DNA of 64,000 nucleotides from an uncultured Flavobacteriaceae bacterium. Its GTDB lineage: Bacteria > Bacteroidota > Bacteroidia > Flavobacteriales > Flavobacteriaceae. The DNA is taken from positions 1 to 64,000 of the forward strand of contig CANNGA010000011.1 in assembly GCA_947504035.1 (NCBI GenBank). The letters are read 5' to 3'. Shown piece by piece: positions 24,744 through 64,000 of the stretch. Made by a program: the position numbers and the translations under genes. Each line of letters opens with the position of its first letter. Position 1 is the first letter of the stretch. The notes below the pieces were generated by a model. That model saw only the letters and a program-made list of their open reading frames with translations, searched no databases and had not been told where the DNA came from.

Positions 24744-27239
24744 CTATTTATAGTCTTTATAAAAAGATTTTGAACTGCTTAAATCTACAGTAGTCTCGTT
24801 AAATTTTAAGGCATCACCATCTCCTACATAGATGCTTTTTAAATTTTCGCTAGCATCTAACGTAATAACGGCAAAAGTCCCTTTAAAATAGAGGTCTAAA
24901 TTCGTACTCTTAAATGTCTCGCCTTTAGATTGGGTGATAATATATTGAATCAATTTTGTTTTCTTTAATTTACTCACCACCTTTAATCCTTTATACAGGC
25001 CGTTCTGTTCTAATTTCGAAACCGATTGTATGGTTGGTTTTTCTTTTTTCCCAAAGGGTTCGTATACCACTACAAAAGGCGTATCCCATGCAGGACCTTT
25101 GTGTCGTATTACCAATGTTGGTGTTGGCAAAGTATTGTAAGGTGCAGGTGCTTGAAATGTGTGCGGTGCTTGAACTGTGGTATAGGTACGTCCTTCAAAA
25201 CCTGGAATGTGCAATTGCATTGCTGCTGCTCCCGTAGCTAATTGCTGGGTGCGAAATGTTGCTTTCACTGTTTTGTCATAAACTTGTGATGTTTTAACGG
25301 CTTCGAAAAAATGCCATCCGGGATTTCTATATGCACCTCGTGTCCATTCCAAATTGGCATTGGCTTTATAACGCAATGGGGTGTGTTCCAGTTTAAGATC
25401 TGTATTTTCTATTTGCAATGTATCTGCAATATTATGATACAGAAAGTCGTGATACTCGTTGGGTAATGCCGATTTAGAACGAAACACATCGACATAATAG
25501 CCTGTTTTTGGAGATGTTCTAATTAGAGCTAAAGTACGTTCTTGTGTCGCTTCTGCTCCCGTTCCTGCCGTATCTTCAAAACTGGTTTGACTAAACGAGT
25601 GGTGTGGTGAAATACCTGCTGCACCCACCTGAGGTTCCATTGCTACCACCTGTATGGTATGCATTCCCAAATTAGCCCATTGTCCTTCGCCTTGCGAAGC
25701 CCCATTTACAATAACCGTATTGTGGGCTGCAAAAATTCTAGAATAGTTTTCGTGTAGGTCTTTGCCATATTTACCACGGCCGTTATCCACACCTAATACC
25801 TGCCCTTCTCCATACAATTCTATATTCATCCCTTCGGCATGCCCATGCACCATGTGTGCGCCTCCTACAAAACACATCAAACCGTCTTTTGCTTTTCCTG
25901 TTGTGCTTAAATTCCGTTGCATTACAATCCCTGCGTGGTATACACGGTCGGTTCTAGGCAACTCCAAAGGCGCTACTTTTTCGGTATGAGGGGCGTCGTA
26001 CCAAAATAGGGCTTCCACCCCAAAACGGGTATACGTTTTGTCTTGTTGGGCACGTGCAATAAGTGGTTTTAATTTTGCTTGAAGTCCTTCTAGTCCGTCC
26101 ATTTTAGCCAATAAGTAAGCATCCTCATAAGCATCATAAGGTGCGTGTCCAAAACGTTTTCCATCTCCCCAACGTACCAACTCGTCATTAGGGTACTTAA
26201 AATAGTCTAACCGTGGCAATGCGTGCAAGATGTTCTCATACGTTTTACCTAATTGCAATTCTGGTTTGTATTTGTTCACAACCAACATCAGTCGTGTTAA
26301 AATTACAGTGACATGGTTTAAATACTGTGAGGTCTCTGGCCAAATATCTCCTTTACCCTTGTAGTTTTTCGCCATCACATCAAGGGCATCTTGGTTTGCT
26401 GTACTCTCCGTTAAAAAATAAGACAGATAGCGCTCTCGCTCTTCTGGATTGTCCATAGCCAAAGCGTTATAAACTAAACTTGGGGCTTCTAGAACAGGGT
26501 GATTGGAATTGGTTTGTCCGTAATTTACAGAGATGTCGATGTACGTTTTAAAAACCTGCTGGGCTTCTGCTATGGGAAAATCTACAGTGGCTTGCTGTAC
26601 AATATCAAAGGGCTTTCCGCCTTCATTAAGATAGGGTGCTATAAAATCGTAAATTAAAGGTAGCTTATCACCTATAACACGTACTTCTCTAAAGCCATCA
26701 TACGGAAAAAGCCATCCGCCCCTACCGTGCCATTCTGAGAGTTTGGTTTTCTGTACAGATTTTACAAAGGCATATAAAATGCTACTGGACACATAAGCGT
26801 AGCGCTCGTCTTGAGACAGGTAATACATCACACTACAATCCAACGCCGCCTGAAGATAGGTTTTTAAAAGCTCTGCAGGTTCCCATTCTTCTGCCGTAGC
26901 ATTATCTAAATTTTTGTGTACGCCATCTTCTACATGATCGGTTTGATAAAAAGGTGGATAGGTATTTTTAGAAGCTTCGGCCCAATTAAACGGTAATTGC
27001 TTTATGTAATCTGTAGGGGTGTTATGAAACGCCTTTACATGGGGTTGTGTTTGCGCTTTCAAATTTGAATACATCTTCTTTGCCCATTTTTGCGTCTTTA
27101 TTTTGTGTTGTATTTCTGCGCGTTCGCTTGCTTTTACCAAGATAAAAGGGCGTTCCAACTTTTGGGCATGGCTTGCGCTAACAACAAACAGGAGCACAAC
27201 TAATTTATAGATAATGTTTTGAGCGTATTGTAATGTCAT
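24744..27239 (-). CDS. heparinase II/III-like polysaccharide lyase, probable PL40 ulvan lyase
   Basis: An 831-residue secreted enzyme. I place the start at the ATG at 27239, giving a good signal peptide (MTLQYAQNIIYKLVVLLFVV, then SASHAQ); the frame stays open 23 codons upstream but that extension would bury the signal. The N-terminal half is an (alpha/alpha) toroid (GRGGWLFPYDGFREVR, NHPVLEAPSLVYN). The C-terminal half is a heparinase II/III-type beta sandwich with HGHAEGMNIELYGEG and a downstream NYSRIFAAHNTVIVNG. Heparinase II/III-like enzymes in rhamnose/sulfatase loci include the ulvan lyase family PL40 of Formosa. It would cleave between sulfated rhamnose and uronate by beta-elimination. 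Confidence 0.65.
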   Translation of the reverse strand: MTLQYAQNIIYKLVVLLFVVSASHAQKLERPFILVKASERAEIQHKIKTQKWAKKMYSNLKAQTQPHVKAFHNTPTDYIKQLPFNWAEASKNTYPPFYQTDHVEDGVHKNLDNATAEEWEPAELLKTYLQAALDCSVMYYLSQDERYAYVSSSILYAFVKSVQKTKLSEWHGRGGWLFPYDGFREVRVIGDKLPLIYDFIAPYLNEGGKPFDIVQQATVDFPIAEAQQVFKTYIDISVNYGQTNSNHPVLEAPSLVYNALAMDNPEERERYLSYFLTESTANQDALDVMAKNYKGKGDIWPETSQYLNHVTVILTRLMLVVNKYKPELQLGKTYENILHALPRLDYFKYPNDELVRWGDGKRFGHAPYDAYEDAYLLAKMDGLEGLQAKLKPLIARAQQDKTYTRFGVEALFWYDAPHTEKVAPLELPRTDRVYHAGIVMQRNLSTTGKAKDGLMCFVGGAHMVHGHAEGMNIELYGEGQVLGVDNGRGKYGKDLHENYSRIFAAHNTVIVNGASQGEGQWANLGMHTIQVVAMEPQVGAAGISPHHSFSQTSFEDTAGTGAEATQERTLALIRTSPKTGYYVDVFRSKSALPNEYHDFLYHNIADTLQIENTDLKLEHTPLRYKANANLEWTRGAYRNPGWHFFEAVKTSQVYDKTVKATFRTQQLATGAAAMQLHIPGFEGRTYTTVQAPHTFQAPAPYNTLPTPTLVIRHKGPAWDTPFVVVYEPFGKKEKPTIQSVSKLEQNGLYKGLKVVSKLKKTKLIQYIITQSKGETFKSTNLDLYFKGTFAVITLDASENLKSIYVGDGDALKFNETTVDLSSSKSFYKDYK

Positions 27240-27577
27240 AACTTTTGAGAGTGGGTTAAAACGGATGCTTTTTGCCTTGCGTTGTAGCAAAGCTCTACCT
27301 ATAATCAAAAATCATACCTAATGCGCTTTTTAAATAAAAGATTTATGCGTCTCCAATATGGGAACGCCTTCAAAATTGACCAAGTCAAAATACCAGCGAC
27401 ATTATATGTATTAAATCCTTCTTCTCGTTAGCCAAAAATCAACATACAATCAGTTTAAAATCAAAACTTTACTTGTGAAATAATGCGCTAACAAAGAAAT
27501 CTATAAAAAAGGGCTTTATATTTCCATTTCTATAAAGTAGTACTTGAGTATCGTTTATTTTCCCGTCTCACAACTTT
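27240..27577. other. intergenic region at the boundary of the accessory island
   Basis: This 338-nt gap lies between the lyase and the DUF4272 gene, both minus-strand. I see no gene and no convincing terminator or TAnnTTTG box. It marks the left border of genes unrelated to polysaccharide use. Confidence 0.4.
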
Positions 27578-31406: not shown

Positions 31407-31609
31407 AATTCTAATTTTGTTTTAAACTTTTCTAAATCGTTTAAAATGCGAATAGCATCCGTAAGCATACTTACTCCCCCACCAAAATAACACTTTCCCC
31501 ACAAACAAACCACCCTACCTCAAAAAAACACCTAAAATCACCTACAAAATCACAGCATAACCTTCAGCTTTATTTATCCATTTGTTATTTCTAACACCAT
31601 TTAATGCCT

Positions 31610-31617
31610 TATGTTTG
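31610..31617 (+). promoter_or_regulatory. promoter of the LRR-kinase gene
   Basis: TATGTTTG is an exact -7 box, with a TTTG at 31581-31584 as a possible -33 element (25-nt gap, slightly long). It lies just upstream of the ATG at 31639. This shows that the earlier in-frame ATG at 31582 would lie upstream of the transcript. Confidence 0.5.
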
Positions 31618-31638
31618 CAGCCAATTATATCGATAAAC

Positions 31639-32931
31639 ATGGTACATACATTAGAAGCCTTAAAATCTGGTACACTCGTTGGAACAAAACGCTTAAAATT
31701 AGCCTGTGGTTTAACTGAATTTCCTGAAGAGATTTTAAGTCTTGCTGATACTTTAGAGGTATTGGATTTATCGGATAACGCCATGTCTACCCTACCTGAT
31801 AGCATTTCGCAATTAAAAAAGCTAAAAATCATCTTCTTTGCCAAGAACAACTTTACTGTTTTCCCTACTGTATTGGCAAAATGTCCAGCCTTGAGTATGA
31901 TTGGTTTTAAGTCGAATGCCATTACAACCGTACCAGAGCAGGCCTTTCCGCCTTTATTAAGATGGCTCATCCTTACCGATAATAAAATTGAGGTGTTACC
32001 AAAAAGTATAGGGCATTGCCATTTACTTCAAAAATGTGCCTTGGCTGGAAATCGGATTAAAGCACTCCCTGCTGAAATGGCCAACTGTATAAATTTAGAA
32101 TTACTAAGACTCTCTGCGAATGCACTGCAATCCATACCTGACTGGCTTTTTGAATTGCCGCGTTTATCTTGGGTGGCCTTTGGAGGCAATCCTGCGGCCT
32201 ATACTCCAAAATCACAGTCCGCTATAAGCACGTTTGATTGGGACGATTTCGCTATCGACACGTTGTTAGGTGAAGGTGCTTCCGGGTTTATCTCTAAAGC
32301 ACATTGGATTTCTAAATCAAAAGATGTTGCCATCAAAATTTTTAAAGGTGCAGTAACAAGCGATGGCTTACCAGAAGACGAAATGAAAGCCTCCATTTTA
32401 GCGGGTGCACATCCCAATTTAATTCCTGTTTTGGGAAAAATAAGCAAACACCCAGAGGCTAAAAATGGTTTGGTTTTAAAACTTATAGGGACGTCTTTTA
32501 AGAACTTAGGCAACCCACCGAGTTTAGAGAGCTGTACCCGAGATGTTTTTGACGACACCTCTAGTTTTAGTCATGCCGATATATTGAAAATTGCCAAAAG
32601 TATCGCTGCTGTTGCCCAACAATTACATCAAAAAGGTATTAATCATGGTGATCTTTACGCGCATAATATATTGGTAGATGCTACTGCGGATTGCCTTTTG
32701 GGTGATTTTGGTGCGGCATCGTTTTATGATACCAATACACCTATAGCGCATAATATTGAACGTATTGAGGTTAGCGCCTATGGCTGTTTATTAGAAGATC
32801 TATTGGAACAGTCTGATCTGTCTGAAGCGCTTCAACATAAATGGCAGGCACTCATTGCCAATTGTACTGCAAAAACGGTTAGCACACGTCCTGGTTTTTC
32901 GGATATTGTAAACACGCTAAAGGCCTTTTAA
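31639..32931 (+). CDS. leucine-rich-repeat protein kinase
   Basis: A 430-residue cytoplasmic protein from the ATG at 31639. Residues about 15-190 are roughly seven leucine-rich repeats (VLDLSDNAMSTLPDSI, LILTDNKIEVLPKSI). Residues 205-430 are a eukaryotic-type kinase domain: glycine loop GEGASG (211-216), Lys233 in VAIKIF, catalytic HGDLYAHN (336-343, with HGD for HRD), and DFG 356-358. It has no membrane helix or signal. It is the only plus-strand gene in the right part of the window and is convergent with the sulfatases. Substrates are unknown; the catalytic residues look intact. Confidence 0.85.
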   Translation: MVHTLEALKSGTLVGTKRLKLACGLTEFPEEILSLADTLEVLDLSDNAMSTLPDSISQLKKLKIIFFAKNNFTVFPTVLAKCPALSMIGFKSNAITTVPEQAFPPLLRWLILTDNKIEVLPKSIGHCHLLQKCALAGNRIKALPAEMANCINLELLRLSANALQSIPDWLFELPRLSWVAFGGNPAAYTPKSQSAISTFDWDDFAIDTLLGEGASGFISKAHWISKSKDVAIKIFKGAVTSDGLPEDEMKASILAGAHPNLIPVLGKISKHPEAKNGLVLKLIGTSFKNLGNPPSLESCTRDVFDDTSSFSHADILKIAKSIAAVAQQLHQKGINHGDLYAHNILVDATADCLLGDFGAASFYDTNTPIAHNIERIEVSAYGCLLEDLLEQSDLSEALQHKWQALIANCTAKTVSTRPGFSDIVNTLKAF

Positions 32932-32989
32932 CCAATTAAAGGCTACGGCACTTTAGCGTATTTGTTTTATCAATCTACCCAACTGTGTT

Positions 32990-34414
32990 TTATTTATAAC
33001 TACTGGCCAATTCTTTTTTAGCTTTTAGTGCTACTCTCATTTTTTCAAGTACAGCCTTTTTGCTATCATCTCCCGCTATGTTTTTATTCTCCTTAGGGTC
33101 TTGTTTTAAATTGTACAGCATCTCTTCTCCGTTTTCGAATAACGAATACGTAAATTCTTCGGTGACTATAGCATCCGCCTTTTTGAAACGCGCATAGGCA
33201 TTTGTTCTAAACGTTTGCTTTGGGTTATCCAAAACCGCTGTAAAACTTTTTCCCATAACGTCTTCTGGCACTTTTACGTTAGCCAAATCGCAAAGCGTAG
33301 GGTAAATATCAACACTTTCTACCAAGGCTTTGGTTGCTGTCCCTTTGGCTTTCCCTGGTACTTTTACAATTAATGGCACTTGTAAGGCTTTATGTAAGGT
33401 ATTATGCTTGCCCCAAAATTCATGTTCTCCTAAATGCCATCCGTGGTCACCCCATAATACTACAATCGTATTTTCTGCCAAACCAAGCACTTCCAATTCT
33501 CTAAGCACTTCACCTACCATTTGATCGACATAGCTCACGCAGGCATAATAGCCATGACGCATCATTTTATGAAACGCTTCCGTATTAGGTTTATAGTCTC
33601 CAAAGCTATAGCTTTTAAACTCACCACTACCTCTTAACAAGCGAGGTGCATTTTCTGGCAACTCGCGATTGTCTGCAATCTCAATAGCAGCTCTATCGTA
33701 CAAATCCCAATATTTCTTAGGCGCATAGAATGGCATGTGTGGTCTAAAAAAACCGCAAGCCATAAAAAAAGACTCCCCAGAGGCTTTAAATTGGCGTAAA
33801 TCACTAATCGTTTTTTGTGCTATTTTATAATCTGGATAGCCCGTCTCATCAACGTCTGGCGCTTCGTAAATACGGCCATTACCAGATTTCATCAGTACAT
33901 CGTTGGTCGTAGGATCGTAAGCCACACGATGTCCACCTTTAGGCATCCAAGGATTTTGACTCCAACTCGCTTCCTGAACATCTTTGTTGTAATGAAAAAT
34001 CTTTCCGTTAGAAATACAGGTATACCCCGCTTCTTTAAAAACACCTGGTAATGTTTTGGCATTCGGTACATCCTCTTGGGCTTTTGCTTTATAATCTATA
34101 AAACGAGTTTTAGTCGGTAAAATACCCGTAAGCAAACTCGCCCTAGAAGCACCACAAACAGGCACATTACAATAAGCGCGGTTAAAGACTAAAGCTTCTT
34201 TTGCAAACTGATCGATGTTTGGCGATTTTACCTGTGGCACGCCATAACATCCTAACTCGGGTCTTAAATCGTCTATAGCAATAAAGAGTACGTTTTTAGG
34301 CTTTTGATTTTGATTCTGACTCTGCTCTTGAGTAACTACCGCGTTTTCTTTGGGTTTACATGCTACCAAAAGCAGTATTGCACTACTTAAACATATTAAA
34401 AATTTGTTCATCAT
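32990..34414 (-). CDS. S1 sulfatase lipoprotein (iduronate-2-sulfatase-like)
   Basis: A 474-residue sulfatase with a lipobox (LLLVAC, Cys19). The metal site has DD48-49 and GDHGWHLGEHEFWGKHN. The formylglycine motif is C87-G-A-S-R91; Ala replaces the usual Pro, which is tolerated in this family. It is similar to the S1_7 iduronate-2-sulfatase-like group. It would remove a sulfate ester from a rhamnose/uronate oligosaccharide, probably in the periplasm. It is last of a three-sulfatase set with gaps of 5 and 12 nt. Confidence 0.85.
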   Translation of the reverse strand: MMNKFLICLSSAILLLVACKPKENAVVTQEQSQNQNQKPKNVLFIAIDDLRPELGCYGVPQVKSPNIDQFAKEALVFNRAYCNVPVCGASRASLLTGILPTKTRFIDYKAKAQEDVPNAKTLPGVFKEAGYTCISNGKIFHYNKDVQEASWSQNPWMPKGGHRVAYDPTTNDVLMKSGNGRIYEAPDVDETGYPDYKIAQKTISDLRQFKASGESFFMACGFFRPHMPFYAPKKYWDLYDRAAIEIADNRELPENAPRLLRGSGEFKSYSFGDYKPNTEAFHKMMRHGYYACVSYVDQMVGEVLRELEVLGLAENTIVVLWGDHGWHLGEHEFWGKHNTLHKALQVPLIVKVPGKAKGTATKALVESVDIYPTLCDLANVKVPEDVMGKSFTAVLDNPKQTFRTNAYARFKKADAIVTEEFTYSLFENGEEMLYNLKQDPKENKNIAGDDSKKAVLEKMRVALKAKKELASSYK

Positions 34415-34419
34415 TATTT

Positions 34420-35919: not shown

Positions 35920-35931
35920 CGTCTTCAATTC

Positions 35932-37656: not shown

Positions 37657-37678
37657 TAAAACTATTTTTTATTGCATA

Positions 37679-53700: not shown

Positions 53701-54271
53701 TTCTATCGGATAATATTTTATAATCTAAGCCATCAATCTTAACGGATGCCTTAGGTTTTGGAAAGGCTAAAACAGCAATATCTTGGTAATAGGTAAACTT
53801 GGTTTTTGGCTTTGGAAGTGCTTTTTTCAACAGACGTCCTCCATCAACAATAAGCTCGCTAGAAACTACGGTTTGCATGGCATTTTCTTCGGTAACCCAA
53901 GGGCCGCCGCTAGACGACCAGCCTGCACTATTATGAAATGCCAATTCTAAATCTAAACGCTTTGCTTCTGTGGCTGCAAAGTGAAATAAGTCTAACCATT
54001 CTTCGCTTAAATAGGTAATCCCGCCTTTTGGAAAACCTAAATGCACGTTAAACAATTGCGCTTCCTGAATGCCTACGTGTTTCATGGCTTCTAAATCTTT
54101 TGTTATACCAGACTTAGAAACGTTACCACTTATCCAATGCCACCATGTTCTGGCTTTTGCTGCATTGGGTGGTGTTTTAAATCCTGCTTCTAAAGTAGCA
54201 GGCACCTCTTGTGCATAGAGAGCTATGCTACACCATAAAACAGTTATAATAATATATATTTTCTTCTTCAT
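50792..54271 (-). CDS. GH106 alpha-L-rhamnosidase (third, most diverged copy)
   Basis: A 1,159-residue secreted enzyme, start at the ATG at 54271 (GTG at 54280 rejected), signal MKKKIYIIITVLWCSIALYA. GH106 hallmarks: GITKDLEAMKHVGIQEAQLF, HNSAGWSSSGGPWV, the DSYEVGAQNW acid motif near residue 300, EPYWGPFDNM, then EFWSGGYP, and NTWWSQSKSYLDYLAKSQYLL. It ends with a jelly-roll domain carrying TNLWVNRLIGDE. It lacks the discoidin-like insertion of its two neighbours. It hydrolyses terminal alpha-L-rhamnose, probably from lyase-released, desulfated oligosaccharides in the periplasm. Confidence 0.88.
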   Translation of the reverse strand: MKKKIYIIITVLWCSIALYAQEVPATLEAGFKTPPNAAKARTWWHWISGNVSKSGITKDLEAMKHVGIQEAQLFNVHLGFPKGGITYLSEEWLDLFHFAATEAKRLDLELAFHNSAGWSSSGGPWVTEENAMQTVVSSELIVDGGRLLKKALPKPKTKFTYYQDIAVLAFPKPKASVKIDGLDYKILSDRIRNHLLPDTKAISKDAIVKKERIIDISSKLSEEGILEWEAPKGEWVILRIGHTPNGAKNRPAVDGGHGLEVDKMSKKALDAYWKAGVQPILNKLGDLVGETVTNCLIDSYEVGAQNWTTGFEQQFKKRRGYDMTPYLATLAGYYVDSGEVTERFQWDFRRTIGDAMAENYYGHFAELCHKNKLKFSVEPYWGPFDNMQVGAKGDIVMCEFWSGGYPFFDSSKFVSSIAHLNGSSIVGAESFTGIGGWDKHPATIKSIGDKAWAEGITRFIFHTYVHQPWDVAPGIALSYHGFDFNRLNTWWSQSKSYLDYLAKSQYLLQQGTNVAEVLVFTGDSSPNTAFLLPELKTAGYDYDLIGAHKLPELSVKNGKIVTKFGVAYEVLSLPESDWITPKTLKIIEALVKKGATVIGHKPKKSPSLSNYPESDAYIKRTASALWDKGLIKTISVQEFLTKKKIVPDFSIAEANREDIGFIHRKTKDAEIYFIANAKKEKVAFTGRFKVANKSPEIWNAETGDIKKVAVWKSNDDGTINIPIVLDSEQSVFVVFKENSVDKNHIVEADVKLEKPTPAPLSNLKIIKAEYGNFLQEGLIDITAKVAAEVKGGTLNFQMSRAFCDCDPAMGYVKEFRMEYQIGDKVEHVHAEEREFVKIDAGNQPLKIISAVFGKFKAETKGVPKNFEAFDVTEDIKAQVASEHLNIKISDELVHGKALKNATNFLKITFETDGNSRTTIIPEGEFLNLNRSIPTSEIYKTKGTTIWKTPFSGRLSYTTASGKSKEVKVTVPKPINLSDNWEVTFPLKDGTALKQHFTTLSSWSEVAEDDIQHFSGTAIYEKQFTLSKKQLCKDNAFELDLGSVAVIAEVSVNGKKVSTLWKAPFRVAIGNYVKKGQNTIQLKITNLWVNRLIGDEKEPLDYQRRGNKTKVLPSWLSRPESRDSKRQTFSSWKHWKKDDELKMSGLLGPVQLQFYKKTAL

Positions 54272-54281
54272 AATCGACACC

Positions 54282-57200
54282 TTATTTTGTTATTATTTTT
54301 GAGGTTGTAATGCTTACAGGGCCTAACAAACCTGCGGGTAGTAATTTATCGGTCGCTTTTTGAAACGAATACGCACTAAAGGTTGTTCTAGGGCCTTCTG
54401 GAAGTGGTTTATTGTGTCTGAACCATTCTGGCATTTTTACCATATCTCCTCTAAAATTAGAAGGGCCAAAACCACGTTTATTTCTCCTGATATCGTATCC
54501 CGTTTGGTTGGGTAATTTTTCATCGCCTATTAAACGGTTGGTCCATTGGTTGGTTACCGCAATTACCAATTCGTTTTCGCCTTCTTGTAATGCTGCTGTA
54601 ACGTCTAGACTGTAAGGGGCTAACCAGCTTACGCCTATAGGCTTTCCGTTAAGCGTGACTTCTGCAATAACATGAACCTCGCCAAGATTTAGCGTAAAGT
54701 GTCGGTCTGCTTTCAACAGGCCTTTTTTTACATTAAACTTGGTACTATAAATGGCTGTTCCCGAATAGTGTTTAATACCTTCGTCCCTATGGGTTGTCCA
54801 ATCCAATAAGGTATTGGTTTTTAACTGCGCTTTGTGATGGTCTTCTTCACGGAAATCGATGGTCCACTCGTTAGCAATAGCTATAGGTTTTGGTAAATCG
54901 GTAACGTTTATATTCCATTTTTCAGTCGTATTGATTAAGCTTGAATAGTTGCCGTTTTCGAAAACTTTCATCTTCAATTTTTGATTATTTTGATGTATTG
55001 AAAATAAAGGTGGCTTTGAAGCCGTTGTTTCTACAGCAGTAATTTGAGTTGCTCCTTTTGATGATTTTTTAAACACCACAAACACCGATTCTTGAGGTTT
55101 TAGATGAATTGATACCTCTGTTCTCCCCGCTTTATGAGAATAGGCTGCCAATTCAACAATTTCTCCACTGGTACTTTTCCATAATTCTGGTACTTTTCCG
55201 TTTACTAAAAAACTGCATTCTAGCGTTTCAGATTCGGTTAAATTATGATTGTAAATGAAATAAATATCTTCATTCTCGGTACGTCTGTGGTAGTAATTAA
55301 AATCGGGTTGTCCTTTAACGATAAGGTCTTTTTTGATGTTATTCGCCTTAAATATACGTTCCCATTCGTAAGTACTATAGGTCGTTTTACTGGACCAAAT
55401 TGCCGCTACTAGGCTTTCAAATTCTGCTTGCATTGCGGCGGTACGAACATAGCCCCCTAATTGCTTTGGCTTTTGGCCTATAATTAAAGCCCCTTGTGTT
55501 GCTAATTTTTCAAGTCCGCGTAATGTCTCTAAACTCATCGCCTGTAGCTTTGGTAATACCAGAGCGTTATAACTAATGCCATTAGGTAATTTTAATTTTC
55601 CATTGTCTATCGTTAAACGATTAATAATAACCTCAGCATTTACACAATCGTATTTATACGCTGCTGGCAATTGTGGTTTGAGTTGTTTTGGGTGAATGAC
55701 ATGGTTGGGCGCTCTATCGCCAACAAATACCAAGAGGTCTACCACAGGATTTCCCTGTCGTAACATATAGGAACCTCGTGCCAAATAACGGATCCATTCT
55801 GGGCCTGCATTGTCCCACCAAGTTTGGGTACGGTCTATGTGAGAGCCTACAAAACTCATAGACATGCCTGGTTCTACATGGGTGTTGGATTGGTGTGCAA
55901 AACGGTGAAACATGTATTCGTTAATACCGTTTGTCCACTCGTAATCGCCCTTTTGTTTGGCTAAAGCGGGATGAAAACTCCAATTTAATTTGGTACTGGT
56001 AAAGGCTTCTGCCGAAATTACATTTTTACCATATATATGTCCCGAAGATACGGCGGCTCTTTTGTGCTTATTGGGTTTGCCTAACCAAAATTCGCCCATA
56101 GGAATATCGGCATTTCGCCCTGCATCTAAGCTGTTAAAAGGACCTACAAAACCATAAGGTTCAATATAAGATAACAGACCATCTTCATGGCATAGTTCGG
56201 TAAAATAATCGAAATAATTGGTAACCATTAGATCGCTTACCAAACGTTTCATATCCCAAAAGACGCCATCAATTGTGGGAAGGTCTTCAACATATTTCCC
56301 TGCAAACAAGGGTAAAAACGGTACAAAATCGTAATTATAGGTCTTTTTAAAGGTCTTTTCCATACCGTCCGTCCAGTTTTGAGGGCCTACCTCATAACTA
56401 TCAATCTCTACATACTGCAAGGCATTAGGCGCATCTATTTTAGCTTGTTTTACCAATTCACCAACAAAGGCATCGTAGTGTATTTTTAAGGCTTTACGGC
56501 TAAATTTATCGATTTCTAATCCTGTTCCAGCATCAGAAGCAGGTTCGTTTGTAGCACCAGAAGCCGTATATCCAAAACGCATAACCGTCCAATTCCCTTT
56601 GGGTAATTTTGCTTTTAATTGACCTGAAGTATTCATTTTATTGGTCAGAACAATGATGTCGTCTTTTTTAATAAAGTCTTTGGCGTTTGGATTGCCCAGT
56701 GGTCTTTTATTTTTTCGGTAAGACGTAAATTCCAGTTCATTGCCTAAGGTATAATTTGCAGAAAGCTGCATCTCATAAATACCTGCATCAAAATCGGTTT
56801 GCAGTCTGAAGTAACGTGCTGTGATAGGTTTAAAATGATCTTTCACATAACATTCGTCCTTTCCTATACGCTGTAATTTAGTGGTATGTGCTTTGGTGAA
56901 ATTTACACCATCGTTAGATTTTAAAAGGGTAACGGTGCCTTTACGTTTGTTAAAAAATAGCGACATCGATTGTATGGCATGCGCTTTTCCGTAATCGTAT
57001 TGCACCCATTCCTTAGGTTTTAAATCTGATAGGGTTGTTGTTTTACCGTCGGTCGCTAAGGCGATATCAAAGGTTGCACTTGATGTTGTGATTTTTGGCG
57101 CTGCACTGGCATCTATAAGTTCGGTTTCTAAGGTTGGATAAGCCACTACAGCAATATCCTTATAAAAATCATGTCGTGCTGGTGGTTGTGCAAGTTGTAA

Positions 57201-57650
57201 TGTAACTTGTTTTCCACCTTTTACAATTTGGCTGCTGTGCACCACCACCTTCATAGCGTGTTCTGGTGTTACCCAAGGTCCTCCGCTAGAGGTCCACCCA
57301 TCGCAATTGTGTACCCCAAAACTTAGTTCCAAGGCTTCACACTCTTTGGCTGCATGCGTTAAAATATCGCGGTGTTCTTGCGAATTGTACGTTACATCGC
57401 CTTCTGGTAAGCCCATAGACACGTTAAATACCAAAATACCGCCTATGCCAGCATCCTTTATGGCTTTTAAATCTTTTGTAAATCCTGCTTTAGACATGTT
57501 ATCGCTATTCACATGGTACCAGGTGCGTGGTTTTGAGTCCTGAGGCGGATTGATAAAGCCTGATTCAAGATGGCCTGTCGTTGCTGGCTTTTGTCCAAAG
57601 CCAATGGCTACAGCAAAGAGCAGACTCCATAACAGATACTTTTTTATCAT
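54282..57650 (-). CDS. GH106 alpha-L-rhamnosidase (copy 2)
   Basis: A 1,122-residue secreted enzyme (signal MIKKYLLWSLLFAVAIGFG). GH106 blocks: GFTKDLKAIKDAGIGGILVF (57-76), HNCDGWTSSGGPWVTP, acid motif EIDSYEVGPQNW with E420, EPYGFVGPFN, EFWLGKPN and TWWDNAGPEWIRYLARGSYM. An F5/8-type discoidin-like insert lies at about 195-300 (EWVQYDYGKA, then LLKSNDGVNF). The C-terminal galactose-binding-like domain ends GPVSIT. It is closely related to the copy at 57663-61040, suggesting duplication. It is 10 nt from the GH106 at 50792-54271. Confidence 0.88.
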   Translation of the reverse strand: MIKKYLLWSLLFAVAIGFGQKPATTGHLESGFINPPQDSKPRTWYHVNSDNMSKAGFTKDLKAIKDAGIGGILVFNVSMGLPEGDVTYNSQEHRDILTHAAKECEALELSFGVHNCDGWTSSGGPWVTPEHAMKVVVHSSQIVKGGKQVTLQLAQPPARHDFYKDIAVVAYPTLETELIDASAAPKITTSSATFDIALATDGKTTTLSDLKPKEWVQYDYGKAHAIQSMSLFFNKRKGTVTLLKSNDGVNFTKAHTTKLQRIGKDECYVKDHFKPITARYFRLQTDFDAGIYEMQLSANYTLGNELEFTSYRKNKRPLGNPNAKDFIKKDDIIVLTNKMNTSGQLKAKLPKGNWTVMRFGYTASGATNEPASDAGTGLEIDKFSRKALKIHYDAFVGELVKQAKIDAPNALQYVEIDSYEVGPQNWTDGMEKTFKKTYNYDFVPFLPLFAGKYVEDLPTIDGVFWDMKRLVSDLMVTNYFDYFTELCHEDGLLSYIEPYGFVGPFNSLDAGRNADIPMGEFWLGKPNKHKRAAVSSGHIYGKNVISAEAFTSTKLNWSFHPALAKQKGDYEWTNGINEYMFHRFAHQSNTHVEPGMSMSFVGSHIDRTQTWWDNAGPEWIRYLARGSYMLRQGNPVVDLLVFVGDRAPNHVIHPKQLKPQLPAAYKYDCVNAEVIINRLTIDNGKLKLPNGISYNALVLPKLQAMSLETLRGLEKLATQGALIIGQKPKQLGGYVRTAAMQAEFESLVAAIWSSKTTYSTYEWERIFKANNIKKDLIVKGQPDFNYYHRRTENEDIYFIYNHNLTESETLECSFLVNGKVPELWKSTSGEIVELAAYSHKAGRTEVSIHLKPQESVFVVFKKSSKGATQITAVETTASKPPLFSIHQNNQKLKMKVFENGNYSSLINTTEKWNINVTDLPKPIAIANEWTIDFREEDHHKAQLKTNTLLDWTTHRDEGIKHYSGTAIYSTKFNVKKGLLKADRHFTLNLGEVHVIAEVTLNGKPIGVSWLAPYSLDVTAALQEGENELVIAVTNQWTNRLIGDEKLPNQTGYDIRRNKRGFGPSNFRGDMVKMPEWFRHNKPLPEGPRTTFSAYSFQKATDKLLPAGLLGPVSITTSKIITK

Positions 57651-57662
57651 AATTTTAAAGTT

Positions 57663-60600
57663 CTATTTTTTAATAATTTTTGTGCTTTTTAGGCGTACAG
57701 GTCCTAATAATCCCGCAGGAATAGTAGGGTCTCCTTTTTTGTAAAACGGAAAGGTTGTAAATGTTGAACGCTGCTTTAGCGGTGGTGGTTCATTGTTTAA
57801 ATACCACTCTGGCATATGACGCCTGCTATAGGTTGTTTCTTTAGGGAAATTTTCATCTCCAATAAGCCTATTGGTCCATTGGTTTGTCGTTTCTATAGTG
57901 ATGTTATTTTCTCCCTTTACGATATACGATGACACCTCTAAGGTATGCGGTGCTTTCCAGCTAATACCAACCTCTTTTCCATTAATAATAACTTTAGCTG
58001 CAATGTTTACCTCCCCTAAATCTAAGGTCATTTTAATGTCCTTTTTAAGATGTGATTTTTGAACACGAAATGTATTGGAATATAGGGCTGTACCTGAATA
58101 ATATTTAATACCTTCATTGGCATGAGACGTCCAATCGATAAGTTTAGGAAAGGTATATGTTTTCTTATCGGACTTAACATCTGGAAACGTCACCTTCCAA
58201 TCTCCTGTAATCTCTATAGCCTTTGGCACCTCTTTTTCTGAAATAGCTACGGTAGTTCCATCACTTAAAGCTACGGCGTAATCGCCCGCTTTTTCAACTT
58301 CAAAATGCAATACGTTTTCTTCCGATAAATAACTTTTAATATGATGTTGCGTTTTAAAGGCTTCTGGTTTTACAGAGCGTACTCCTGAAGATTTTTCTCT
58401 AAATACCACAAATATAGAGCCTTCTTTTGGCAAATGGATTAACGCTTTTGTTTTACCGTCTTCTTCTACATATGTGGCAAGTTTAGTAATCTCTCCTGTT
58501 GTTTGGTTCCACAACTCCGGTATTTTGCCAGTAACATTAAATGTGCAACTGTAACTTTTGGCGTTTTGTTCTGGATTATAGAAAAAATAGATGTCTTCAG
58601 TTTTCGTTTTCCTATGGATGTAATTAATAGCTGTTCCATCTTCTATGTAAAGATCTTTGGGAATGTGATGTGCTTTAAAAATGGTATCCCAATCCTTAGG
58701 CAAATGCGTTGTTGGTTGCTCCCAAATGGTATTGACTAAGCTGGTGAATTTTGCCTTATCGGCAGCAGTTACAGCATAGCCTCCTAAGGCTTCTGGTTTA
58801 TTCCCTACAATTACAACACCCTCGTTGGCCAATTCTGCAATGCGTTGTAGTGTAGACCATTTAATTTGCTTTGTATTTTTAAGGTATAATACATGATAGC
58901 TTATTCCATTAGGCAATACCATTTTAGAATTTTTAACCTGTATTCTATGCACCAATGCATCTGTATTGATGCAATCAAAATTAATATGTTTAGGAAGCCT
59001 TGGTTGAAACCTATGCGCTTTAATAATTGAATTTGGCGAACCATCTCCTACAAAAACAAGTAAATCTGAAACGGGATTCCCTTGGCGTAATAAGTATTGA
59101 CCTCGTGCTAAATATTTAAACCATGCCTTACCTGCATTATACCACCACGTTTGCGTACGGTCTATATGCGATCCCCATTGGCTCATTGTCATGCCGGGCT
59201 TAACATGGGTATTGGCTTGGTGCGCAAAACGGTGAAACATAAATTCATTAATCCCTAAGGTCCACGCCTTATCTCCTGTTAACTTTAGACTTCCTGGGTG
59301 GCCTTTCCAGTTGATTTCTGGGCGGGCAGAAAACGCTTCGGCAGAAACTATATTCTTGCCATAAATACGAGCGCCAGATACTGCTGTTCCGGCTTGAAAA
59401 CGTTGATGCATCCAGAACTCTCCCATGGTAATGTCTACTTTTTTAGCTGCATCGAGTTCGTTAAAATCACCATTGAAACTATAGGGCTCTACATAACTTA
59501 TTAATCCATCTTCATGACATAGTTCTGTAAAATAATCAAAATAATTTTCGGTAATCATTTTGCTATTAAAGTTGCGTATGTCCCATAATACGCGATCACT
59601 GGTTTCGGCATCTTCTACATATTTACCAGCATAAAGTGGTAAAAATGGTAGCACATCGTAGCCCAATTCATTTTTAAAACCATTTTCATAGCCACTTGTC
59701 CAATTTTGGCCACCTACTTCATAACTATCAATTTCTATATATTGCAAAGCATTTGGTGCCACTTTTTTTGATGCTGCAATGGTATTTCTTACGTAGCCCT
59801 CGTAAAAAGCTTTAAAGGCGGGCTTACTCATTTTATCCACTTCCCACCCTGTACCTTCATCTGAAGCAGGCACATTAAAAGCAGCGGTAATAGTGTACCC
59901 AAAACGCATGATCGTCCAGTTTCCTTTAGGTAATTCTGTTGTTAAATGCCCATTCGCATCCATCGCATTTGTGATATTAATAATGCTCTTTTTGGGTATG
60001 ATATGCGATTGGTCTACGGTTTTAATTTTTGGCATTTTGTGATTCTCTATTTTAAACAAAGAGGTTCTTGCCAAGGTTTTATTGATCTGTTTTAAATTAC
60101 TTAATGTTATTTCTGTAGGTTGTAAAGGTACTTCTGAAACAATTCTGAAAAAACGTGACTTAACACCATTAAAAGCCAGCTCTACAGCCCGCTCGTACTT
60201 TACGATAGGCATAGGCTTTATTTGTCTTACTTTTTTGTAATTGATACCATCTTCTGACGTCATTAAATGAATCGTTCCCTTTTTTCTTGGAGGTTGGTAT
60301 AAACTTATATTTAGGGTATTTAAGGTAAACGGCTTGTCGTATGTAAAATCAATCCACTGCGGCTTCTTCTGCGTGGCATCCAAGTAAAGGTCTTTATCTA
60401 TTTTTTGATCTGTAAGCAGTTCTAAATCAAGTCCTTTTTGAGAACTGCTTAATGTGGGTTTGTTTTCTAAGTCTTGTATATCGGCCTCCAAAGCAGGATA
60501 GGCAATTACAGCAACATCTTTGTAAAAGCCACCGCGCTGCGAGGGTTGTGGCAATTGCAAATTTAATTTGCCACCTTTGGTAACCGTTTGGGTATAAGTG

Positions 60601-61040
60601 ACACGTTTCATGGCATTTTCGGGTGTTACCCAAGGTCCTCCACTAGAGGTCCAACCATCACAGTTATGCACGCCAAAACTCAACCCTAACCTTTCGCACT
60701 CCGCCGCCGCAAAAGCGGTCATTTCTATATGCTCTGGCGAATTAAAAATCGTGTTGCCTTTTGGTACATAATGGGTGACATTAAACAAGATAATTCCTCC
60801 AATACCAACTTGAGCCATGGCTTCTAAATCTTTAGTCAATCCCGCTTTGGTCATATTACCACTCATAACATGCATCCATGTTTTTGGTTTTACCGCATTT
60901 GAAGGGTTTTTAAAGCCGTATACCAAATCGTGAGTTTTTAACTGCTCAACTTCCGCCCTTTTATCCTGAGCTTGTAAACTGAATGTCACTAACATACAGA
61001 TAAAAATAACATGTAAGAATGTGATGGTTTGTGTTTTCAT
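57663..61040 (-). CDS. GH106 alpha-L-rhamnosidase (copy 1)
   Basis: A 1,125-residue secreted enzyme (signal MKTQTITFLHVIFICMLVTF, then SLQA). GH106 blocks: GLTKDLEAMAQVGIGGIILF, HNCDGWTSSGGPWVTP, acid motif EIDSYEVGGQNW near residue 440, EPYSFNGDFNELD, then EFWMHQ, and TWWYNAGKAWFKYLARGQYL. It has the same discoidin-like insert (about 215-320) as copy 2 and the same C-terminal QWTNRLIGDEN. It is 12 nt upstream of copy 2 and 24 nt downstream of the PL8 gene. Different chain positions or sulfation contexts for the three copies are inferred. Confidence 0.88.
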   Translation of the reverse strand: MKTQTITFLHVIFICMLVTFSLQAQDKRAEVEQLKTHDLVYGFKNPSNAVKPKTWMHVMSGNMTKAGLTKDLEAMAQVGIGGIILFNVTHYVPKGNTIFNSPEHIEMTAFAAAECERLGLSFGVHNCDGWTSSGGPWVTPENAMKRVTYTQTVTKGGKLNLQLPQPSQRGGFYKDVAVIAYPALEADIQDLENKPTLSSSQKGLDLELLTDQKIDKDLYLDATQKKPQWIDFTYDKPFTLNTLNISLYQPPRKKGTIHLMTSEDGINYKKVRQIKPMPIVKYERAVELAFNGVKSRFFRIVSEVPLQPTEITLSNLKQINKTLARTSLFKIENHKMPKIKTVDQSHIIPKKSIINITNAMDANGHLTTELPKGNWTIMRFGYTITAAFNVPASDEGTGWEVDKMSKPAFKAFYEGYVRNTIAASKKVAPNALQYIEIDSYEVGGQNWTSGYENGFKNELGYDVLPFLPLYAGKYVEDAETSDRVLWDIRNFNSKMITENYFDYFTELCHEDGLISYVEPYSFNGDFNELDAAKKVDITMGEFWMHQRFQAGTAVSGARIYGKNIVSAEAFSARPEINWKGHPGSLKLTGDKAWTLGINEFMFHRFAHQANTHVKPGMTMSQWGSHIDRTQTWWYNAGKAWFKYLARGQYLLRQGNPVSDLLVFVGDGSPNSIIKAHRFQPRLPKHINFDCINTDALVHRIQVKNSKMVLPNGISYHVLYLKNTKQIKWSTLQRIAELANEGVVIVGNKPEALGGYAVTAADKAKFTSLVNTIWEQPTTHLPKDWDTIFKAHHIPKDLYIEDGTAINYIHRKTKTEDIYFFYNPEQNAKSYSCTFNVTGKIPELWNQTTGEITKLATYVEEDGKTKALIHLPKEGSIFVVFREKSSGVRSVKPEAFKTQHHIKSYLSEENVLHFEVEKAGDYAVALSDGTTVAISEKEVPKAIEITGDWKVTFPDVKSDKKTYTFPKLIDWTSHANEGIKYYSGTALYSNTFRVQKSHLKKDIKMTLDLGEVNIAAKVIINGKEVGISWKAPHTLEVSSYIVKGENNITIETTNQWTNRLIGDENFPKETTYSRRHMPEWYLNNEPPPLKQRSTFTTFPFYKKGDPTIPAGLLGPVRLKSTKIIKK

Positions 61041-61064
61041 TTTATATAATCTACTAATTCTAAT

Positions 61065-63179
61065 CTATTTGTTACGTTCTAATGCCAATACAACGGATTC
61101 CCCTGCATGCTCTCCTTGGGGCAATGCAACGTTTAACTGGGTTTTACCATTGTGGTAAGTGCTATTTATTGTGGTATAATGTCCTTGTAACGTTACTTTT
61201 ACCGTTTTTAAAATTTGTGCGGGATCGCTAACTGTCAATTGTAAATGGTCTGTTTTTTCTTCTAATAAAAGCACGCAAGGGTGATCTACAGCAAGTCCTC
61301 CTTTAAGTTTTGAATTGCCTTTTTTATAAAAAACCATTCCTGCTAATGTTTGGTCCACACTTTCGACCGACTGAAATACCGCTGTATTCACAATTTTGAA
61401 AGGATGGTTTTCATGCAAATTCATCATTTTTTCTTCTGATGCATTTGGCACTAAAATATACGTATAGGCTGCATTTTTAGGTCTTGTGCCATGGGATACC
61501 CACAGCTTAAAAATATGCTCTGTTAAAAGCACCGGACGGTAGCGTTTTGCCACCTTATTCCAACTGCCAACTAATATATTGGTTGCAATATTGGTGTTTT
61601 GATTTTTAGGAAAAAAGTAGCCAATGCTATCATGCAACACCCAATCTATAGCTGCATTTTTTTGTTTACGTATGGGCTTCTGGATGTGACCTGCTTTACT
61701 AACAACAACATTCCCTTTTAAAAAGGATTGGTTAATTGCAGTAGTGGTTTCTGCATTTTTATCTGATGAAATATCAGTTCCCAGACACACAATAAAATCG
61801 TTAAACATGAACCACGATTTTTTGGCCTTTAGCCCATCTCTATCGTAATCCATTACTGCGATACCATTTTGTCCATTAGAAACGCCACCAACAAATACGC
61901 CATTGGTTTTAAAATCTCTAAATTTAATACTAGGTAGTTTAGCGGTGTCTTGCGCAATGGTTGTTCCTGGAAGTTTTTTCCAATCCCAAAATGGAAATAC
62001 ATTTTGATAGGCCTGGTTGTTTACCGACAATAAGGCGAGTCCATCGCCCATATAATAGCCTTGTACATTTTCGCTGTTTACCGACTCTGTGCCTACCACA
62101 CGTTTGGAACTCATTTTAACAGAAAAGTAAAAATCATTACGACGGTGTACATGAAAATCTGATTCCCAAAAATGCTTGTTTCCTGATAAAACGGTGCTAC
62201 TAATAGCTGCATCATAAGCCTTTGCATGAGGCTTATCTAACTGTTTCATCTGTTCTAAACAAACTTTTAAGCGTGCTGCTTTCTTTTGCTGTTCATCTTT
62301 GTAGAGATGTCGTCCTAAAGCGCTAACACCATAAGAATTGTTCCAATATATCCATTGTTGCCCTTCTAAAACGTAATTTCTTAATGTAGCTATTTTATGC
62401 TTTTCAAATTGAAAAGGGGTCGCATTTACAAACGCATAGCATTGTATCATATTTTCTAAATACCACAGCCCATAATTGCCAAATTGCAATTGCGCACCGT
62501 GTTCGTGATAGGACCAATCGGCTTTAATACCTACATTTTTAGAAACTTTTAATTCTTCTTGAATGGCTTTGCTTGCCTCGGCTACAGTTTCTACATCTCG
62601 CAATAACAAGGATTTTAGTAGTACATTGGTCGCTAACCACACTTTATTTTGCCCAGACATTTTTATTTTGGCACGATTGGCGAGCTCAATCCCTTTATCG
62701 AATTGCGTTTTGGTCAATTCACTTTCCATTAGCAACAGTGTTGGTAGCAAAAATTTAGGCACCCCAATATGTTGATCGTGCCAATTGGCACTTAAAAAAT
62801 CATGATCTAACCAATAGTCTAGGCTTTTGTGTATTTTTTTTGAAAGCGCTTTATCCTTATACAATTTTGAACTTTTAGACGTATAGCTAATGGCTAAAAT
62901 TTGCAGGTATTTTAAATGGTCTTTTACAGGCCATTCGCTCTTTATTTTGGTGTTATAGTCTATCGTATTCCAAGAACCGTCTTCCTGTAAGGTGGATAAT
63001 AGATGGTCTACAGTTTGCGGTTCTGCTTTGTGCTGCACATAATAGTTTAAAACATTTTCATGCAATTGCGCTAGTGCTTCTGGGTACAATTGCTTTATCT
63101 CCCTATCGGATGTATTACAACCAAATATGAGAAGAATAAGAACGCCTATACCATATGCTTTAAAATACTTGAGCACCAT
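61065..63179 (-). CDS. PL8-family polysaccharide lyase lipoprotein
   Basis: A 704-residue lipoprotein (lipobox IFGC, Cys21) with the PL8 (alpha/alpha)-toroid and beta-sandwich. Catalytic residues align with chondroitinase AC spacing: H227 and Y236 (EHGAQLQFGNYG, 9 apart) and R290 (GVSALGRH, 63 after the His); N178 fits the neutralising Asn. The middle carries VHRRNDFYFSVKMSSKRVVG and YYMGDGLALL. Known PL8 lyases act on hyaluronan, chondroitin or xanthan side chains; none of these fits this locus, so another glucuronate- or iduronate-containing chain is the likely substrate. Confidence 0.85.
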   Translation of the reverse strand: MVLKYFKAYGIGVLILLIFGCNTSDREIKQLYPEALAQLHENVLNYYVQHKAEPQTVDHLLSTLQEDGSWNTIDYNTKIKSEWPVKDHLKYLQILAISYTSKSSKLYKDKALSKKIHKSLDYWLDHDFLSANWHDQHIGVPKFLLPTLLLMESELTKTQFDKGIELANRAKIKMSGQNKVWLATNVLLKSLLLRDVETVAEASKAIQEELKVSKNVGIKADWSYHEHGAQLQFGNYGLWYLENMIQCYAFVNATPFQFEKHKIATLRNYVLEGQQWIYWNNSYGVSALGRHLYKDEQQKKAARLKVCLEQMKQLDKPHAKAYDAAISSTVLSGNKHFWESDFHVHRRNDFYFSVKMSSKRVVGTESVNSENVQGYYMGDGLALLSVNNQAYQNVFPFWDWKKLPGTTIAQDTAKLPSIKFRDFKTNGVFVGGVSNGQNGIAVMDYDRDGLKAKKSWFMFNDFIVCLGTDISSDKNAETTTAINQSFLKGNVVVSKAGHIQKPIRKQKNAAIDWVLHDSIGYFFPKNQNTNIATNILVGSWNKVAKRYRPVLLTEHIFKLWVSHGTRPKNAAYTYILVPNASEEKMMNLHENHPFKIVNTAVFQSVESVDQTLAGMVFYKKGNSKLKGGLAVDHPCVLLLEEKTDHLQLTVSDPAQILKTVKVTLQGHYTTINSTYHNGKTQLNVALPQGEHAGESVVLALERNK

Positions 63180-63181
63180 AA

Positions 63182-64000
63182 TTAATCAATAAACAGCTCG
63201 TCTATATATGGCCCACTTTTACCTGTGGTTTCTAATCGGATGCTATTAGCACCTGCTTTTAAGCGAATAATGGTGGGTACAAACTTCCATTCTTTTTCCC
63301 AACCACCAGTGGGCTTAAATTCTAGGGTTCTAATGTATTCGTCGTTTACATACAACTTCATAGGGTGCTTCTGCCCTTCGTTATTGTGCATGTATCGCAA
63401 ACGAATGCTGTAATCGCCGCCTTCGCCATCATTTTCTTGGTAAAATTCTACCGAACCTTCTTTATTTTCAAAAGTTACAAAACCGCTTCCTTTAAAACGT
63501 CTCGCTTCTCGACTGGCTTTGGCATTGCCTTTCAAAATTCCATCTTCGGCAGAGAGGTTTACACCTCTACCAATCCATAGATCTTTAGAATGCTCATCAC
63601 CCCAAAACAAACCTTCATTCTTACCAAAGGCTTCGCTTAGCGTAAGTACTACTTTGCCATTTTGTTTTACAATGGCTTTTACGGTTGTACCATCTGTAAT
63701 TGTGAAAGGTGCTTTATAAATGCGTCCCTTTGTTTCTGGGTCATCGCCATTCGTGGTATAGAACACCTCTAGTTTTGAAGATGCTTTTTTCCCTAAAACA
63801 GCGATCTCTTTAACATCAATAGTAATTTCGTTTGAAATGTATAGGGCTTTATCACCTAAGATGGATGCCGTAAGTATTGCTGCGTTTTTAGCATCGGGCA
63901 GAGCTCTTAGAAACAGTCGTGTTTTTCCAAAAAACAAGGCTCTATACTCCGATTTTGTTCTGCTTGTTGGATCAATAGGATTGCCATTTTCCATAGAGAT
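63182..64000 (-). CDS. C-terminal part of a GH2-family hydrolase (partial, runs off the window)
   Basis: The reading frame continues through the right edge; the Met at 63994 is internal (codons Ile-Ser precede it). Visible parts are the GH2 C-terminal strand ENGNPIDPTSRTKSEYRALF followed by FGKTRLFLRA; then a chitobiase/hexosaminidase C-terminal-like domain (FYTTNGDDPETKGRIYKAPF); then a CBM35/CBM6-like domain (DYSIRLRYMHNNEGQKHPMKL, with LKAGANSIRLETTGKSG and DELFI at the end). It is 2 nt upstream of the PL8 gene. The catalytic domain lies outside. Confidence 0.75.
   Translation of the reverse strand: MSMENGNPIDPTSRTKSEYRALFFGKTRLFLRALPDAKNAAILTASILGDKALYISNEITIDVKEIAVLGKKASSKLEVFYTTNGDDPETKGRIYKAPFTITDGTTVKAIVKQNGKVVLTLSEAFGKNEGLFWGDEHSKDLWIGRGVNLSAEDGILKGNAKASREARRFKGSGFVTFENKEGSVEFYQENDGEGGDYSIRLRYMHNNEGQKHPMKLYVNDEYIRTLEFKPTGGWEKEWKFVPTIIRLKAGANSIRLETTGKSGPYIDELFID

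Follow-up and report, generated by a model that had tools for sequence, protein, structure and literature searches.

What does a polysaccharide lyase (PL) of family PL8 do in the midst of a gene cluster for ulvan, the main polymer of green-tide seaweed, whose branched parts rich in glucuronic acid (GlcA) have a poorly known fate? Such a lyase gene lies in the window analysed here, a stretch of 64,000 nucleotides (C11:1-64000) from the genome of an uncultured Flavobacteriaceae bacterium (4.23 Mb in 73 contigs; contig C11, 144,278 bp). With good confidence, we consider the whole to be best explained as one very large ulvan utilization locus, and it is the PL8 and its slot that are new relative to an otherwise known kind of ulvan locus. 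Gene content, homology, synteny and active-site conservation were computed, families being called from Pfam, NCBIfam and comparison with solved structures (PDB), and genes being called at 120 amino acids (aa) or more.

The target of the locus is almost certainly ulvan, given that PL24, PL25, PL28 and PL40 genes occur together in one cluster. Those of three of the families are the following:

24744-27308, minus strand: PL40 ulvan lyase, Uly1040-like (Hepar_II_III_C; 9vtk, E 3.2e-177)
49362-50789, minus strand: PL25 ulvan lyase (BNR_4; residues 33-465 against 5uam, E 1.5e-155)
contig 98425-100881, same cluster: second PL40 (E 1.6e-84 to Uly1040)
contig 116387-118396, same cluster: PL28 (PF22826, 6.4e-117)

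The original prediction, made from the window alone, had named the heparinase-like PL40 and the PL25 as candidates, and the solved-structure comparison keeps both in lyase families. In the first PL40, the catalytic Asn245, Tyr305, Asp358, His485 and His487 of Uly1040 are kept in the alignment (the last two in a His-Gly-His motif), while the position of Trp246 holds His; the accessible text of PMC12915356 describes the roles of these residues and gives Trp246 to His as an occasional replacement. Past the window, three proteins combine BNR_4 with an ulvan-lyase beta-trefoil domain. The first is PL24 (6byp, 2.9e-168). Over 809 residues the third shares 49% identity with it; for the second the figure is only 38%, over 233 residues, which leaves its family less sure. 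Another sulfated rhamnan, such as the rhamnan sulfate of Monostroma, is a very improbable target: three GH106 and two GH78 (glycoside hydrolase, GH) genes would suit it, but PL24, PL25, PL28 and PL40 are all there, along with the ulvan-lyase beta-trefoil domains. The original prediction of an ulvan variant or another sulfated rhamnan thus pointed in the right direction, and the four lyase families narrow it to ulvan.

The locus spans 15.7-137.7 kb of the contig, and the window is its left part. Nearly all genes past the window, up to about 137.7 kb, are on the same strand; between 32990 and 106614 every called gene is on one strand, with many gaps below 30 bp, so that chance clustering is no concern. 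That no SusC/SusD pair lies in the window, as had been noted, is true, but only because the window stops short. Extension of the contig past 64,000, proposed at the time, finds the pair on the same strand of this contig, 28-33 kb past the end of the window:

contig 92156-93739, same strand as the cluster: SusD
contig 93826-96867, same strand as the cluster: SusC

This extension also adds PL24, PL28, the second PL40, GH78, GH3, GH43, GH5, a GH88/GH105-type hydrolase and six S1 sulfatases, which are arranged in successive blocks:

first block past the window: GH2b, three S1, GH43, two GH78, a 639-aa protein without known domain
next block: two BNR_4 plus ulvan-lyase beta-trefoil proteins with type-IX tails, two GH3, GH5, SusD/SusC (92156-96867)
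block after SusC: a protein with a 3-keto-disaccharide-hydrolase domain, second PL40, S1, GH43, small PL28-like proteins (other strand), S1, GH43
further block: a 638-aa protein without known domain, PL28, another BNR_4 plus trefoil protein, a DUF1501/PSCyt module
last block, toward 137.7 kb: GH2, S1, a PF07470 (GH88-type) protein, GH3, GH43

Judged by what is expected of a Bacteroidota ulvan polysaccharide utilization locus (PUL), an ulvan lyase of PL24/PL25/PL28/PL37/PL40 is present, as are 11 S1 sulfatases, two GH78, three GH106 and one PF07470 protein, which may be GH88 or GH105; the SusC/SusD pair is present outside the window.

The PL8 gene itself stands at the right end of the window, between GH106 and GH2 genes:

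50792-54280, minus strand: GH106a, alpha-L-rhamnosidase family (PF17132, 3e-192), orthologue conserved across related loci
54282-57650, minus strand: GH106b (PF17132, 4.5e-178)
57663-61040, minus strand: GH106c (PF17132, 2e-176)
61065-63179, minus strand: PL8 lyase of 704 aa, ulvan-locus clade (PF08124, PF02278 and PF02884, all above cut-off)
63182-64000, minus strand: C-terminal part of GH2b, cut by the window end and complete at contig 63182-66229

The PL8 family is known chiefly from lyases of animal polysaccharides, and chondroitinase AC (1cb8/1hm2) is the nearest solved relative of the window PL8 (1cb8, E 1.5e-91), and the two share all three Pfam PL8 domains and the catalytic residues. 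With the residue numbering and catalytic roles that we take to hold for chondroitinase AC, Asn175, His225, Tyr234, Arg288, Glu371 and Asn374 are kept in the alignment in 6/6 PL8s from ulvan loci. Unlike chondroitinase AC, however, the window PL8 belongs, besides its ulvan-locus context, to a clade of its own: the six ulvan-locus PL8s group together with support of 100/100 on a private stem of 0.66 changes per column (21-row tree, some rows partial). All six carry NWH, where 14 of the 15 other PL8 rows have NWW and one has NWY. At the position of Arg292, five have Lys and the sixth has Glu, the second Arg of chondroitinase AC thus not being kept, and the position of Trp427 is not Trp in the alignment. 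Several distant PL8 rows appear out of register around 175 and 225, and hence no claim is made about those rows. The N-terminus ends in a lipobox-like LIFGC, which makes the PL8 a likely lipoprotein.

Conservation of the PL8 is limited to some of the relatives. A family search of 249 genomes (own included) at E <= 1e-30 gave a PL25 match in 12 and a PL8 match in 14; in four of the latter (own included) the PL8 match reaches at least 60% identity, and in the remaining ten it does not exceed 35%. The named PL8 relatives yielded five loci, with only L038 and L039 falling within the close clade, and a class-wide search of 395 genomes at E <= 1e-100 found no clade member beyond the own genome, only two relatives at 35%.

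Is the surrounding gene order conserved as well? Fifteen loci were examined: the window's own (G000), G249 (L038, CANLCJ010000007.1, an uncultured Flavobacteriaceae metagenome-assembled genome, MAG), G250 (L039, an Algibacter MAG), G044, G045, G002, G153, G152, G163, G169, G070, G132, G145, G176 and G071. The order S1_d-S1_e-PL25-GH106a-(GH106b)-slot-GH2b-S1_f-GH78a-GH78b-PL24 recurs, though not without gaps and insertions. The slot that precedes GH2b is occupied by PL8 in six loci (G000, G249, G044, G045, G002 and L039), by a PF05426 lyase in three (G045, G152 and G153) and by GH59 in four (G045, G163, G169 and L039), PL8 and PF05426 being side by side in G045; no GH2b was found within the 40 kb examined of G176. 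GH106 directly adjoins PL8 in 5/5 loci with that side visible, and GH2b lies within three genes of it in 6/6. The slot PF05426 proteins of G152 and G153 are nearest to 3nfv and 8bdq, both of which we take to be PL38. Hence, proteins resembling members of the PL38 lyases (BoPL38, Aly38A, CUL-I, TpPL38A, RiPL38), whose Pfam family is different from that of PL8, fill the PL8 slot in sister loci. For these lyases the window's genome has no match at E <= 1e-15, and 10/15 tested genomes have one somewhere. That PL8, PL38-like and GH59 enzymes replace one another in a conserved slot suggests that a single substrate feature is dealt with by unrelated enzymes, and singles out candidate enzymes for it.

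These observations bear on whether the PL8 could be an ordinary lyase of the chondroitin/hyaluronan type that happens to be located here, acting for example on glycosaminoglycan-like polymers of animal or bacterial origin at the surface of the alga. We judge this improbable. It would agree with chondroitinase AC as the nearest solved relative and with the conserved catalytic set, but not with the separate clade, the GH106-GH2 slot in all six loci or the NWW to NWH change in 6/6. Moreover, four of the other PL8 loci of the family (the second locus of G153, G017, G021 and G119) show neither GH106a nor GH2b in the 20 kb examined of each; two of these four adjoin GH88-type genes.

Which linkage would the PL8 then cut? 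Ulvan has GlcA residues in succession as well as side chains of beta-1,2 GlcA (PMC8511951), and green-algal walls contain traces of glucuronan (PMC9092854). Taken together with the PL38-like partners in the slot, the GlcA branches and runs of ulvan and the glucuronan traces lead us to predict a substrate of the GlcA-GlcA type. The PL8 may thus act either on GlcA-rich parts of ulvan (runs of GlcA or GlcA in side chains) or on the glucuronan of Ulva, a tentative assignment whose chances we put slightly below even. We give an even chance to the proposal that the enzyme represents a separate PL8 clade, confined to Flavobacteriaceae ulvan loci in the genomes examined, with a new GlcA-rich ulvan or glucuronan substrate and a modular slot interchangeable with PL38-type enzymes. 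We know of no earlier PL8 lyase of a green-algal polysaccharide, and this clade would be the first, if the proposal is true.

Alternatively, the PL8 might act on the ulvan backbone, at the bond between 3-sulfated rhamnose and GlcA (Rha3S-GlcA), and so represent another ulvan lyase family. The bond that PL8 enzymes cleave, on the 4-side of the uronate, is also the one attacked by ulvan lyases; together with the location in an ulvan locus and the NWW to NWH change, which suggests a different neighbour sugar, this gives the alternative some appeal. However, the locus already holds PL24, PL25, PL28 and PL40, and what sister loci carry in the slot is a PL38-like lyase, not a member of a known ulvan lyase family. 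We therefore regard backbone cleavage as unlikely.

Several points also weigh against the GlcA-rich substrate that we prefer. The PL8 is accessory rather than core, reaching 60% identity or more in only 3/12 PL25-bearing genomes, and the slot is empty in 4/15 loci (G070, G132, G145 and G071). G002 has GH106a-PL8-GH2b, yet no PL25 in its genome at E <= 1e-30 and no PL40 in 80 kb, so that the PL8 may instead serve the GH106-GH2 steps; a PL24-like gene is present there (68% identity over 506 residues). The slot also accepts GH59, an enzyme of different chemistry. Members of PL38 active on alginate and on hyaluronan/chondroitin appear in the accessible text of PMC13027841; with such broad activities, and with PF05426 being maybe wider than PL38, the argument from the slot does not by itself identify the substrate. 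Finally, a fold model of the PL8 built from a five-row alignment was poor (mean pLDDT, the predicted local distance difference test, of 48) and was not used.

How might the parts work together? From the genes we infer which proteins are secreted, what is imported, in which order the steps follow and on what each enzyme acts. Secreted PL24 and PL28 proteins, which have type-IX secretion tails, would cut ulvan extracellularly, and the oligosaccharides would be imported through SusC/SusD. PL40, PL25, the eleven S1 sulfatases, GH78/GH106, the GH88/GH105-type enzyme, GH3, GH39, GH43, GH5 and GH2 would then yield rhamnose, uronates and xylose, with the PL8 presumably cutting GlcA-rich stretches left by the classical ulvan lyases. 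Rhamnose would be burned via the adjoining RhaI-RhaB-RhaEW-LldD operon, which is beside a GntR-type regulator, and unsaturated uronate and glucuronate would be handled by a separate island on contig C20 (KduI, a short-chain dehydrogenase/reductase (SDR) that is probably KduD, UxuA, UxaC and a TRAP transporter).

Known systems share much of this. PUL H of Formosa agariphila KMM 3901 (PMC8511951, accessible part) has PL40, PL28, GH39, GH43, GH78, GH3, GH2 and S1 sulfatases in common with our locus, and the PF07470, GH3, GH78, GH39 and GH43 genes here agree with the enzyme types of the Formosa pathway. That part of its enzyme list names GH105, where our locus has a PF07470 protein that is maybe GH88 or GH105, and it does not name PL24, PL25, GH106 or PL8. 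The ulvan locus of Pseudoalteromonas marina PUA1001, as far as PMC13050008 is accessible, combines PL24, PL25 and PL40 with GH106, as here, but belongs to Pseudomonadota and has two sulfatases versus eleven; no mention of PL8 was met in that text, although no search aimed at PL8 was made there. A Formosa "PL8" was reassigned to PL33/PL40 by its own authors, according to the accessible text of PMC8072126. No published report of PL8 in an ulvan locus was found, including in the accessible portions of PMC6168547, PMC8072126, PMC12323373 and PMC11381880, which is weak evidence as few subscription papers were covered; nor does the accessible portion of PMC12323373 place PL38 in an ulvan locus.

The original prediction had set GH106, PL8 and uxaAB apart from the standard ulvan set. 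This stands for PL8 and uxaAB, but less so for GH106, for which an orthologue lies within the cluster in 12/15 loci (the exceptions being G163, G169 and L039, a locus at a contig end in a MAG that lacks any GH106 match) and which is already published for the Pseudoalteromonas marina ulvan locus in the accessible part of PMC13050008. All three GH106 proteins of the window cover the PF17132 model almost entirely. The PL8, three GH106, GH39, two GH2, five S1 sulfatases and uxaAB that it listed are all found by Pfam where it had put them, and the phosphorylative rhamnose operon that it described, with its GntR regulator, does adjoin the locus:

15682-17067, minus strand: putative transporter of 461 aa at the operon end (no Pfam match; weak permease similarity, NCBIfam 7.9e-12, below cut-off)
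17094-18242, minus strand: FMN-dependent L-lactate dehydrogenase, LldD-like (PF01070, 7.9e-117; NCBIfam below cut-off)
18319-19689, minus strand: rhamnulokinase, RhaB-like (FGGY; TIGR02627, 3.7e-20, below cut-off)
19700-20980, minus strand: L-rhamnose isomerase RhaI (TIGR02629, 5.5e-151, below cut-off)
21078-23183, minus strand: RhaEW, a rhamnulose-1-P aldolase/lactaldehyde dehydrogenase fusion (NF006191, E 0; TIGR02632, 2.1e-281; above cut-offs)
23669-24715, plus strand: GntR-type regulator with a periplasmic-binding-like sensor domain (PF00392, PF13377), between the rhamnose operon and PL40

Isomerase, kinase and fusion together make up a phosphorylative L-rhamnose pathway of the RhaEW type; the first two are below cut-offs but adjacent. 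As in the accessible part of PMC3870299, where lldD occurs in some rha regulons, RhaI, a kinase and the RhaEW fusion go together; the RhaEW pathway with lldD is thus already described in other bacteria, and the operon here differs in adjoining a PL40 gene, with a GntR-type regulator. It lies beside PL40 in 6/7 loci with that side covered, own included (G000, G249, G044, G045, G153 and G152), and no rhamnose operon was found in the 80 kb examined of G002. In both G249 and G152, an orthologue of the 461-aa putative transporter likewise stands last in the operon. A literature search found no paper joining ulvan, rhamnose isomerase and polysaccharide utilization. A full rhamnose operon linked to an ulvan locus offers a genetic marker for ulvan use.

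Further inside the locus, a GH2 gene is followed by two uronate genes:

43288-46137, minus strand: GH2a (PF02836; NCBIfam nearest exo-beta-1,4-galactosidase, below cut-off), adjoining UxaA/UxaB
46157-47764, minus strand: UxaA, altronate/galactarate dehydratase family (PF20629, PF04295; NCBIfam galactarate dehydratase only, below cut-off)
47773-49227, minus strand: UxaB tagaturonate reductase (PF08125; NF002969, 2.8e-192, above cut-off)

Among the loci examined, UxaAB lies inside the ulvan locus in the window's genome only; in G044, GH2a is in the ulvan cluster without UxaAB, which is in another SusC/SusD cluster on C3. One explanation is that UxaA-UxaB were captured beside GH2a to burn the uronate freed by GH2a, giving a galacturonate/iduronate branch that is lacking in G249. 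GH2a, UxaA and UxaB are contiguous in a 6.1-kb segment absent from G249, whose genome has no UxaA at E <= 1e-20; and since UxuA and UxaC are already in the C20 island, beside SDRs, KduI and the TRAP transporter, and no UxaE was found, the pair would add a separate route. On the other hand, the ulvan cluster of G044 has GH2a but no UxaAB, to our knowledge no galacturonate has been reported in ulvan, and no pathway that leads from iduronate to UxaB is known to us. The capture is therefore a rather doubtful suggestion. GH2a as a galacturonidase was considered and is not claimed. The draining of glucuronate by UxaAB through a UxaE epimerase was also considered and dropped, there being no UxaE in 5/5 genomes tested.

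The other hydrolases and sulfatases of the window are as follows:

32990-34414, minus strand: S1 sulfatase a (PF00884; variant motif CGASR)
34420-35928, minus strand: S1 sulfatase b (PF00884; CAPSR)
35932-37572, minus strand: S1 sulfatase c (PF00884; CAPSR)
37679-40237, minus strand: GH39 with a type-IX secretion tail (PF01229, PF18962), by analogy a probable beta-xylosidase
40390-41916, minus strand: S1 sulfatase d (PF00884; CGPSR)
41924-43264, minus strand: S1 sulfatase e (PF00884; variant motif CSPSL)

Nine of the eleven S1 sulfatases in the locus have the C-X-P-X-R motif, and the two variants, CGASR and CSPSL, were checked by alignment. The orthologues of sulfatase e in G044 and G045 likewise do not have the motif.

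Two pairs of related proteins lie past the window. On the opposite strand (C11:107037-109647), two small adjoining genes are 68% identical to each other, the first being a stand-alone PL28 domain. The 639-aa (C11:77475-79394) and 638-aa (C11:114244-116160) proteins are 47% identical; neither has a Pfam match, and the 639-aa copy has no PDB or NCBIfam match either. The 638-aa protein adjoins PL28, as Formosa P29_PDnc (construct to residue 622) adjoins P30_PL28, a likeness by position alone. An assignment of the pair to P29_PDnc/PL37, which would rest on position and length only, was considered and is not claimed.

Has the locus moved between lineages? Against contig C7 of G249 (L070-L075), segments 31477-37601, 40388-43265, 49371-57679 and 61085-69268 have 96.3-96.6% DNA identity, the rhamnose operon and PL40 have 91-92%, and pieces past 69.3 kb have 66-83%. 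The uronate island (C20:5668-16215, L092) is 95.3% identical over 10.5 kb. By comparison, a 4.5-kb rpoB fragment has 90.2% and the 15.7 kb aligned around rpoB 89.1%, a background that rests on these few regions and on a MAG; the genes left of the rhamnose operon, at 71-72%, are on another G249 contig. Both ulvan core and uronate island thus exceed rpoB in identity, and the core was probably exchanged recently between the two lineages; the island looks as if it had been transferred in a similar manner. Absent at the matching places of G249 are GH39 (37602-40387), GH2a-UxaA-UxaB (43266-49370) and GH106c (57680-61084); since G044 and G045 both have GH39 at its place, its absence from G249 is probably a loss. 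A core with 96.5% DNA identity between otherwise more diverged lineages suggests that such loci move between marine bacteria.

Two further observations concern genes of other kinds within the locus. An opposite-strand gene at 31582-32931 encodes leucine-rich repeats and a eukaryotic-type protein kinase domain, and is 98% identical in G249. At C11:122605-128056 lie proteins with NHL, DUF1501 and PSCyt1/PSD1 domains (Pfam names after Planctomycetes), and the DUF1501 and PSCyt genes are present twice in G249.

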